In this document: positions 12,856 through 17,969 of the stretch, in pieces
Layout: each line of letters opens with the position of its first letter
Position numbering within the stretch: position 1 is the first letter of the stretch
Assembly: GCA_021802585.1 (NCBI GenBank)
Contig: JAJZRQ010000011.1
Coordinates: 19,281 to 52,163 of the forward strand
Length of the DNA: 32,883 nucleotides
Origin: Chloroflexota bacterium
Lineage (GTDB): Bacteria; Chloroflexota; Limnocylindria; Limnocylindrales; CSP1-4
Direction: 5' to 3'
Notes under the pieces: generated by a model
What the model was told of the DNA's origin: nothing
Seen by the model: only the letters and a program-made list of their open reading frames with translations
Databases searched by the model: none
Made by a program: the position numbers and the translations under genes

Positions 12856-13368
12856 ATGGGCCGCCTTCACCTTGCCGCCTGGCTCCGTCGGGGAGTCGAA
12901 GCCGGCGTCTTCGCGGCCCTCCTCGCGCTCGTCACGGTCCTCAGCCTCGCCTGGGAGGGCCACGGCCCGGGGCCCCTCCGGCTGCCCGACGGCCTCGGGG
13001 CCGGCCTCGTCCTCGCCCTGCCCGTCCTCTCCCTCGGCGTCCTCGCGATCGCCTACCCGATCGCCCTCGCCGCCACGCGGGGCGACGCGATCCTCGGCGC
13101 GATCACCGGCTGGGTCGTCGCCGCCAACGTCCTCGTCGTCGTGACCGCCGTCATGGGCCAGCGGATCCTCCTCCTCTCGGCCGGCGTCGCGATCCCCCTC
13201 GGGGTCGTCGCCGGGCTCTTCGCGGCGCCCGTCGCCCTCGCCGGCCTCCTCGCCGCGGCGCTCCTCACGCCACTCGGCTTCGGGCGTCGCGCGGGACGGG
13301 TCGCCGCGGTCGCGGCGACGCTCGTCGCGACGCCGATCCTCCTCCTCGTCGTCCCGGCCGCCGCCTGA
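12856..13368 (+). CDS. Polytopic membrane protein, function unknown
   Basis: 170 aa, almost entirely hydrophobic, with about five predicted helices: near 14-32, 45-72, 80-99, 103-134 and 145-168. A short basic N-terminus (MGRLHLAAWLRR) suggests the N-terminus is cytoplasmic. No catalytic or transport motif is recognisable, and no charged residue lies inside the helices apart from a few Arg/Asp at the loops. Composition is dominated by Ala, Val and Leu, so chance hydrophobic similarity to many families is likely. It has its own leaderless-type promoter, 39 nt after the second KAS and 128 nt before the kinase gene. No function is proposed. Confidence 0.7.
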   Translation: MGRLHLAAWLRRGVEAGVFAALLALVTVLSLAWEGHGPGPLRLPDGLGAGLVLALPVLSLGVLAIAYPIALAATRGDAILGAITGWVVAANVLVVVTAVMGQRILLLSAGVAIPLGVVAGLFAAPVALAGLLAAALLTPLGFGRRAGRVAAVAATLVATPILLLVVPAAA

Positions 13369-15182: not shown

Positions 15183-17969
15183 CTAGCGCACCTCGAAGAT
15201 CGCCGCGGGGAGGGCGGCTGCGCCGCCCATCGAGCCGTCCGCCATGCCCGCGACGGAGGCCGTCGCCGCGAGGGGGGCACAGGCGAGGGTGTACCTCCCC
15301 GGCGTCCCGAGCGCGAAGCGCGCGGCCTGCGCCTGGCCCGGGCGGGGGTTCAGCTCGACCTTGGGGGCCCCCGGCAGGGTGCAGACGACGAGCGCGTCCC
15401 CGTCGTTCGTGAACGTGACCCGGACCTGCTCGCCCGTCGCGACCTGCCAGACCGGGGCCGGGCCGCCGAGGGCGGTCGCCCGGATCGCCACGGGAACGGC
15501 CGTCGCGTCGAGCCAGCGGTTGACGCCGATGACGCCCGCCGCCACCCCGACGGCGAGGCCCGCGATCACCGCGAGGTACGCCGCGTCCTTCACCCGGGTC
15601 CACGTCCGGTGCTCGGATGCGGCGAGGACCGCCGCCGGGCGCGGGTCGTAGCCGCGGAGGCGGAGCGAGTTCGAGATGACGCTCACCGAGGAGAGGGCCA
15701 TCGCCCCGGCCGCCATCGCCGGGTTGAGGGTGATCCCGAAGAACGGGTAGAGGACGCCCATCGCGATCGGGATGAGGGCGACGTTGTAGGCGAATGCCCA
15801 GAAGAGGTTCTGGCGGATGACCGCCATCGTCCGCCGCGAGAGGGCGATCGCCGCGACGACGCCGCGTGGATCGCCCCCGACGAGGGTGACGTCCGACGCC
15901 TCGATCGCGACGTCCGCCCCGGTCCCGATCGCGACGCCGAGGTCGGCGGCCGCGAGGGCCGGCGCGTCGTTGATCCCGTCGCCGACCATCGCGACGACCG
16001 CGCCCCGAGCGCGCAGCTCCTCGACGACGGCGGCCTTCGCGCCGGGCAGGACCTGGGCCCGGACGCGCTCGGGCGGGATCCCGACCTGCGCCGCCACGGC
16101 GAGGGCCGTCGCCCGGTGGTCGCCGGTCACAAGCCACGCCTCGATGCCGGCCGCGCCGAGGCCGCGGACCGCCTCGGCCGCCTCCGCCTTCACCGGGTCG
16201 GCGACCGCGACGAGGCCCGCCGGGACGCCGTCGACCGCGACGAAGATCGGGGTCCGGCCGACGGCGGCCTGCGCCTCGCCCTCCGCGCCGAGCGGTCCGA
16301 GGTCGACGCCCCGTCCTTCGAGGAAGCGAGCGCTCCCGACGAGGACGGGCCGGCCGTCGATCGATGCCTCGGCTCCCCCGCCGGCGGTCGCGACGAACGC
16401 GTCGCCGGTGGGGAACGCGAGCCCGCGCTCGCGCGCCGCGAGGAGGATCGCCCCGGCCAGGGGGTGCTCCGAGCCGGCCTCGACGGCCGCCGCGAGCCGG
16501 AGGAGGTCGTCCGGCGACAGGTCGCCGGCGGGGAGCACCTCGGCGACGGCCGGCTTGCCGCGGGTGAGGGTCCCGGTCTTGTCGAGGAGGACGGCCGTCA
16601 CCCGGTGGGCGTTCTCGAGCGCCTCGCCGCCGCGGACGAGGATCCCGGCCTCCGCTCCGCGTCCCGTCCCGACCATGATCGCCGTCGGGGTGGCGAGCCC
16701 CATCGCACAGGGGCAGGCGATGATGACGACGGTGATGAAGGCCGCGAGGGCGAGCGTCACCTTCGGCTCGGGGCCGAGGAGCCACCAGAGGGCGAACGTC
16801 GCCGCGCCGGTCGCGAGGACGAGCGGCACGAAGACGCCGCTGATCTGGTCCGCGAGACGCTGGATCGGGGCCTTCGAACCCTGGGCGCGGCGGACCATCT
16901 CGACGATCTGGGCGAGCGCCGTATCCCGCCCGACGCGCGTCGCGCGCATGACGAAGCTGCCGGTCGTGTTGAGGGTCGCCCCGATCACCTCGTCGCCGGG
17001 GCTCTTCGTGACCGGCATCGCCTCCCCGGTGAGCATCGCCTCGTCGACGGCGCTCGAGCCCTCGCTGACCACGCCGTCGACGGGGACCTTCTCGCCCGGG
17101 CGGACCCGGAGGAGGTCACCCGGCTGGACCTGCTCGATGGCCACATCGACGTCGCCGGAGGCGCGGACGAGGCGAGCCGTCTTCGCCTGGAGGCCGACGA
17201 GGCGGCGGATCGCGCCCGTCGTGCGCCCCTTCGCCCGCGCCTCGAGCCACTTCCCGAGGAGGATGAGGCCGATGATGATCGTCGAGGAGTCGAAGTACGT
17301 CTCCGCGGGCAGGCCGGCCCGCATGATGACCTCGGGGTACATCGTCACGAAGACGGAGTAGCCCCACGCGGCGCTCGTGCCGACGGCGACGAGCGTGCTC
17401 ATGTTCGTCCCGCCGTGGCGGGCGCTCTTCCACGCGGCCTGGTAGTAGCGGCGCCCGGCCCAGAACTGGACGAACGTCGCCGGCCACAGGACGAGTCGGT
17501 TGACGTCGGCCATCGCGAGGCCGAGCGGGCCGAACATGAGGGCCATGATCCCGACCGCGACGGCGATGCTCACCGCGGCCTGGATCCCCATCTCGCGCTG
17601 CTCGCGGGCCCGGGTCCGCTCCGTCTCGTCGAGCTCCGCGTCGGCCGACGCGGCCTCGCCGGCGCCGGTCGCCCGCGCCTCGGCGGCCTCGAGCGACCCG
17701 GGGCGAACCTCGTAGCCGGCCTTCTCGATCGCGCCGACGAGCTCGGCCCGCCCGACCGCCTCGGGGAGGAAGCGGATCGTCGCGACCTCGGTCGCGAGGT
17801 TGACGTTCGCCTCGACGACGCCATCCGTCTTCCGCAGGAACCGCTCGATCCGGTTGCTGCACGAGGCGCAGGTCATCCCGACGACGGGGAACGAGACCTC
17901 GACGGGCTCGACGGCCGACCCGGCCGATCCGGCGGGGCCGATGGGGGCGGTGGGGACGCTCGCGTTCAT
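15183..17969 (-). CDS. copA: Cu(I)-exporting P1B-type ATPase with C-terminal cupredoxin-like domain
   Basis: 928 aa. It pumps Cu(I) out of the cytoplasm using ATP. Order: N-terminal HMA domain (22-95) with GMTCASC (Cys34, Cys37); eight-helix ATPase core with TGEA 314-317, transmembrane CPC 419-421, phosphorylated Asp463 in DKTGTLT, HP at 502-503 and GDGINDAP from 663. Asn729 (AYN) and MALSS (758-762) complete the Cu(I) site of the P1B-1 class. Ordinary CopA ends near residue 775-790. Here an extra helix (about 797-818) leads to ~110 residues resembling a cupredoxin: [16 protein letters not shown]. Cys897 and Met909 match two copper ligands, but the usual histidines are absent and the first is Cys863 instead. 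The added domain would lie outside the membrane. It is convergent with the kinase gene (12-nt gap). No csoR/cueR is in the window. Confidence 0.95.

Follow-up and report, generated by a model that had tools for sequence, protein, structure and literature searches.

A copper-pump gene with a C-terminal extension

The window, the whole 32,883-nucleotide stretch of Chloroflexota DNA that we analysed, carries on its minus strand a gene for a long copper ATPase whose chain continues past the usual end of the pump. The gene and the features of its pump section are:

15183..17969 (-), CopA-cupredoxin fusion gene, 928 aa, ATG start; genus copies L001, L009-L012
17709..17891 (-), N-terminal HMA domain, residues 27-87, with GMTCASC (Pfam PF00403, E 9e-14)
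15654..17969 (-), CopA pump core, residues 1-772, with the P1B-1 signature (TIGR01511/TIGR01525 stretches stop at 771-772; Foldseek 4bbj, E 1e-53)
16707..16715 (-), CPC, transmembrane Cu(I) site motif, residues 419-421 (motif scan)

Judged by its sequence, the gene product is a P1B-1 copper ATPase (CopA) and a predicted Cu(I) exporter. The core scored 603 bits against TIGR01511, for which the cut-off is 397, and the protein carries CPC at 419-421, DKTGT at 463, HP at 502, GDGINDAP at 663, and MxxSSx5N[ST] at residues 757-768, so that, with the CxxC of the HMA domain, every sequence mark of the P1B-1 Cu(I)-ATPases (CPC, DKTGT, HP, GDGxND, MxxSSx5N[ST], HMA CxxC) is present. While the pump core and its Cu(I) signature are held in common with standard P1B-1 ATPases (LpCopA, 4bbj and 3rfu), the standard CopA models stop at about residue 772 of the window protein and include neither a ninth helix nor an exit-side domain. 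The fusion protein contains six cysteines, four of which belong to the copper motifs (CxxC and CPC), the remaining two being Cys863 and Cys897.

Upon searching the neighbouring genes of the window against Pfam, we found no recognisable copper operon around the fusion gene. A 170-residue hydrophobic ORF with no Pfam match follows two ketoacyl synthases at 12856-13368 (+). Elsewhere in the same genome (G000), on contig C49 (loci L002 and L155), a second, non-fused CopA adjoins a CupA homologue (PDB 4f2e, E 1.8e-20) that retains a Cys at the His position and C-x-M-x-M (FTCQMGM), and this contig also holds a related second CupA homologue (FTCAMGRY) and a CsoR-like match. Another ORF there, L155 (C49:5914-6375 (-)), is small and cupredoxin-like and has a hydrophobic segment at its N-terminal side; it keeps both His and the Met, with an Asp at the copper Cys position (HEFLDPDPGHASAGM).

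Fold and predicted placement of the C-terminal domain

Beyond about residue 772, where CopA proteins normally end, the chain continues as a helix followed by a beta domain that spans residues 824-928:

15501..15638 (-), extra (ninth) helix, residues 778-823, hydropathy peak at 793-816 (AF2 full-length model and hydropathy)
15186..15500 (-), predicted cupredoxin-fold domain, residues 824-928 (~105 residues), putatively extracytoplasmic (AF2, Foldseek against the PDB, profile matches)

The original prediction, made for positions 15183-15581 (residues 797 to the stop), had described a helix and a cupredoxin-like domain beyond the CopA end and had proposed structure prediction and a fold search as its check, and both bear it out. 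AlphaFold2 modeling of residues 770-928 with 21 sequences yielded seven strands of at least three residues past the helix at a mean pLDDT of 83.5, and a Foldseek search of the PDB gave cupredoxin proteins throughout the 50 matches listed (best E 4.3e-6, probability 1.0), including CuA domains, small laccases, nitrous oxide reductase, nitrite reductase, and Cupredoxin_1. As modeled, the tail domain is a cupredoxin fold. Sequence profiles hardly detect the window domain (PF00127, E 0.013, under the cut-off), but tails of relatives pass, that of L015 for instance (PF13473, E 2.5e-11).

The C-terminal end of standard CopA lies in the cytoplasm. Because the fusion protein combines an eight-helix CopA with one further helix, and because a K/R-rich stretch (6 K/R within 28 residues) precedes that helix, the domain is predicted to face outward, on the extracytoplasmic side, which is consistent with the outer-side placement put forward originally. 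An arrangement like that of S. pneumoniae CopA, with the metal-binding domain in the cytoplasm, is less likely, given the one extra helix after the pump and a Cys register unlike that of CupA. In another family of the class, CopA proteins (L026 and L033) were found with the extra C-terminal helix and no cupredoxin.

Ligand positions in the domain

Alignment with related fused tails located the residues at and near the ligand positions as follows:

15387..15389 (-), Val861, canonical first-His ligand position (alignments)
15381..15383 (-), Cys863, clade-specific, at His+2, the Trp column of relatives (alignments)
15279..15281 (-), Cys897, conserved type-1 copper Cys position (alignments)
15228..15278 (-), lengthened loop that spans residues 898-914 and contains Met909 and Met914 but no second ligand His (variable among relatives)

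The window domain does not have the type-1 set of His, Cys, His, and Met: it has Val861, Cys897, no second His, and a Met that is off position. Both His ligands are lost throughout the clade to which the window sequence belongs, in agreement with the initial remark that the usual histidines are missing. The rearrangement of ligands proposed alongside that remark did not hold up, however, as the first-His position is a Val and Met909 is not conserved. Cys863, which had been assigned to the first-His position, is off by two residues: all three MAFFT modes placed Val861 in the His column and Cys863 in the column of the Trp of the relatives' FHDW. Canonical tails continue after FTND as xxxxHDWxxxG, and the window sequence aligns there without a gap. 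Regarding the suggestion that Cys897 and Met909 are ligands, the Cys half agrees with the alignments, in which Cys897 occupies the type-1 Cys position and is invariant within the clade, whereas Met909 lies at Cys+12 instead of the canonical Cys+10 and is not common to the clade as a whole, in which the loop Met is found at Cys+4, Cys+8, or elsewhere. In the full-length AF2 model, pLDDT falls below 50 at residues 902-918.

Cys863 and Cys897 are invariant in 8/8 clade sequences, the domains of which are 46-55% identical to that of the window. Homologues lacking both Cys and Met had originally been named as a refutation, and on this point the outcome is mixed: every clade member retains the two Cys and one or more loop Met, while other lineages of the family keep the domain without the ligand set.

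Distribution and descent of the fusion

The fused tail was found in 34/107 genomes of the window's own family (matches at E ~1e-40 or better). All five genus members with a copy found carry it in an intact frame, which rules out an artefact or frame error as the source of the tail; no fused copy was found in a further genus member, G003, whose genome is 64% complete. The 34 family fusions comprise 10 with the full type-1 set, 8 of the Cys/Cys type including the window, 15 without the set, and 1 that is cut short. In this last case (L099, genome G442), the tail stops in frame after AARPG, past the first His and ahead of the Cys, reflecting either a truncated gene or an assembly fault. A 400-genome sample of the phylum added seven fusions in other Chloroflexota families, six of them canonical (G066, G252, G158, G230, G237, and G244) and one without ligands (G165), such that the canonical type-1 form makes up roughly a third of the fusions within the family and the majority of those sampled beyond it. 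The ligand-less tail of G165 (L141, SREIVVTLAEQ...GEYPVSVDGTVVG) suggests a further independent ligand loss. A scan of named genomes for family-like tails returned Chloroflexota MAGs only; as it used two short patterns typical of the family, other phyla may still carry the fusion. When a plasmid collection was queried by tblastn with the last pump helices plus the tail of L117, 4755 records matched, none covering 80% of the query, and no plasmid-borne fusion was thus recovered from this collection.

Because 16/41 fusions overall hold the complete type-1 set (His...Cys-x4-His-x4-Met in these tails), the ancestral domain was, as far as sequence can tell, probably an ordinary CopI/plastocyanin-like cupredoxin. 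The eight Cys/Cys sequences form one clade both in the pump-core tree (95/96) and in the tail tree (100/99), while the ligand-less fusions of the family fall at three places in the core tree. Non-fused pumps are interspersed among the fused ones, and several close relatives have a CopA lacking the domain. In the window, L117, and L119 alike, the fusion gene lies between a pair of ketoacyl synthase genes and an Ogt-like gene (window genes assigned by Pfam, those of L117 and L119 judged by eye), and this common fab-gene/Ogt-like setting supports vertical descent. The simplest account is that of one inherited type-1 fusion that turned into the Cys/Cys form once, was stripped of its ligands several times, and lost the domain in some pumps, where we infer the direction of change, from type-1 to Cys/Cys. 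Repeated fusion events are a possible alternative because of the interspersed non-fused pumps. The CopA of L021 ends in RGRLVVEP, which resembles the last domain strand of L119 (a short, weak match) and may be all that an in-frame deletion spared of the domain.

Comparison with known copper systems

CopI is a periplasmic plastocyanin-like copper-resistance protein that was first found in a copA gene cluster, and the Cu(I) exported by CopA goes to CusF in the periplasm (PMC7558416). Among NCBIfam models, CopI (NF051440/NF047895) was the best or near-best match of five canonical tails tested (E 4e-8 to 1.5e-13), although at ~33-51 bits these tails stay far below the CopI equivalog cut-off of 280; the window tail gave no match to the CopI models at E 10. 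CopI is a separate periplasmic protein, whereas the fused tails are part of the pump chain, and the window domain is without the ligands. E. coli CusF resembles the fused domain in the proposed role of a Cu(I) acceptor at the pump exit (PMC7558416), but it is a separate protein with an OB-like barrel and His/Met ligands with Trp. It is on account of the hand-over to CusF, the role of CopI, and the CopI-like canonical tails that we read the fusion as a pump that may have its own exit-side acceptor.

A second point of comparison is S. pneumoniae CupA, a cupredoxin-fold protein that binds Cu(I) through two Cys (PMC5646241). CupA and the N-domain of S. pneumoniae CopA are like the fusion in having a two-Cys cupredoxin, in their case one that binds Cu(I), attached to a membrane anchor or to a copper ATPase (PMC5646241, PMC7558416). 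However, CupA acts on the cytoplasmic side and the cupredoxin of that CopA is N-terminal, whereas the window domain is C-terminal and predicted to lie on the exit side. Alignment with the sequences of PDB 4f2e and 4f2f (S. pneumoniae CupA and CopA N-domain), which were reached via the CupA homologue of genome G000, showed their first Cys at, or at most one column from, the His position, with the motif C-x-M-x-M; the window domain, with its Cys at His+2 and no C-x-M-x-M, differs on both counts. Going by these sequences, the original wording of a Cys at the His position fits CupA and not the window domain.

In the open-licence literature we found no description of a CopA with a C-terminal exit-side cupredoxin, in line with the original view that a built-in acceptor is not standard in P1B-1 ATPases, though such an architecture may stand unnamed in domain-architecture databases. 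Likewise, no description was found of a cupredoxin in which the old type-1 Cys and a new Cys at His+2 form a Cu(I) site.

Possible roles of the domain

As the best reading, which we consider to have about an even chance of being correct, the fusion represents an exit-side copper acceptor built into the pump, here rebuilt around a Cys pair. From the sequences, a built-in acceptor is plausible because many fused relatives keep the full type-1 site. A P1B-1 exporter chain would run via its ninth helix into an exit-side cupredoxin of the CopI/plastocyanin type, and in the ancestral form the attached type-1 site (His-Cys-His-Met) would catch the Cu(I) leaving the pump, thereby replacing a separate CusF or CopI. 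In the window clade, the two His would then have disappeared, while the Cys stayed in place and was joined by a second Cys on the former first-His strand. In cupredoxins, the first-His strand and the Cys strand lie side by side. Owing to this adjacency, a Cys two residues below the His could, by analogy, share a metal with the old type-1 Cys. The window domain would thus most likely still bind exported copper, with Cu(I) between Cys863 and Cys897 and a loop Met helping, a site that is favoured because the protein's remaining four Cys all belong to copper motifs. We infer both the transfer of copper from pump to domain and the binding of Cu(I) by the Cys pair. Counting against such an acceptor are the retention of the domain in family groups without the ligand set, the place of Cys863 outside the CupA and canonical ligand positions, the variation of the loop Met positions among members, the lack of a recognisable copper operon around the gene, and the high domain dN/dS of the window copy. 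The more specific proposal, that the type-1 Cys and the new Cys with a loop Met form a Cu(I) site at the pump exit and that a blue-copper-type acceptor has turned into a thiolate acceptor, is put forward tentatively, as a possibility that we would not expect to prevail.

The main rival to the acceptor holds that the domain no longer binds copper: Cys863 and Cys897 would be joined in a disulfide, and the cupredoxin at the pump exit would have a structural task, as a lid or as a docking platform. Retention of the domain evidently does not require metal ligands, since 15 family fusions and G165 outside the family have it without the set, with domain dN/dS of 0.11-0.32 where measured, and the window clade itself is without either His. 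Yet these ligand-less fusions lost the type-1 Cys while the window clade kept it, and in a copper-free scaffold one would less expect just two Cys to be strictly conserved, the former copper ligand among them. Cys863 and Cys897 would moreover form a diagonal pair across adjacent strands, which, from general knowledge of the fold, is less usual for a disulfide. We regard a copper-free domain as possible but rather doubtful.

Selection bears on a further alternative, in which the domain is a relic heading to loss. In pairwise Nei-Gojobori comparisons, where synonymous changes are high in the wider pairs, domain dN/dS was 0.13-0.50 in the Cys/Cys clade, with high values for the window copy (0.39-0.50), and 0.27-0.38 among four canonical copies, compared to 0.05-0.23 for the pump core. 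The domain is under purifying selection in all three types, canonical, Cys/Cys, and ligand-less, and this selection is weaker than on the pump. A relic would agree with a domain dN/dS about twice that of the pump, with the variable C-terminal loop, with the close relatives whose CopA is without the domain, with the helix-only proteins L026 and L033, and with the possible deletion in L021. But dN/dS is below 1 in every measured pair and similar in the canonical copies, the frames are intact in the genus copies, and the fold is well predicted, all of which make decay an improbable explanation.

Lastly, the canonical fused domains could be electron carriers or Cu(I)-oxidising sites, in which the pump would install copper a single time as a cofactor instead of delivering each exported ion to them. 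They share their ligands with the blue copper proteins, and among the solved structures nearest in sequence are CuA domains, auracyanin, plastocyanin, and the cupredoxins of nitrite reductase. The tethering to a pump and the weak similarity to CopI, on the other hand, fit copper handling, and the window clade gave up the type-1 set while retaining the fusion. An electron-transfer role accordingly appears unlikely to us.

Implications

A far-side copper recipient is known for few copper ATPases and, in the cases that we found, it is a separate protein. If the exit-side acceptor reading is true, pump and acceptor reside in one chain, and the hand-over of copper would become measurable within one molecule. 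Furthermore, the fusions constitute a natural series, from a full type-1 site through a Cys pair to no ligands, which separates metal-dependent from metal-independent roles of the domain.
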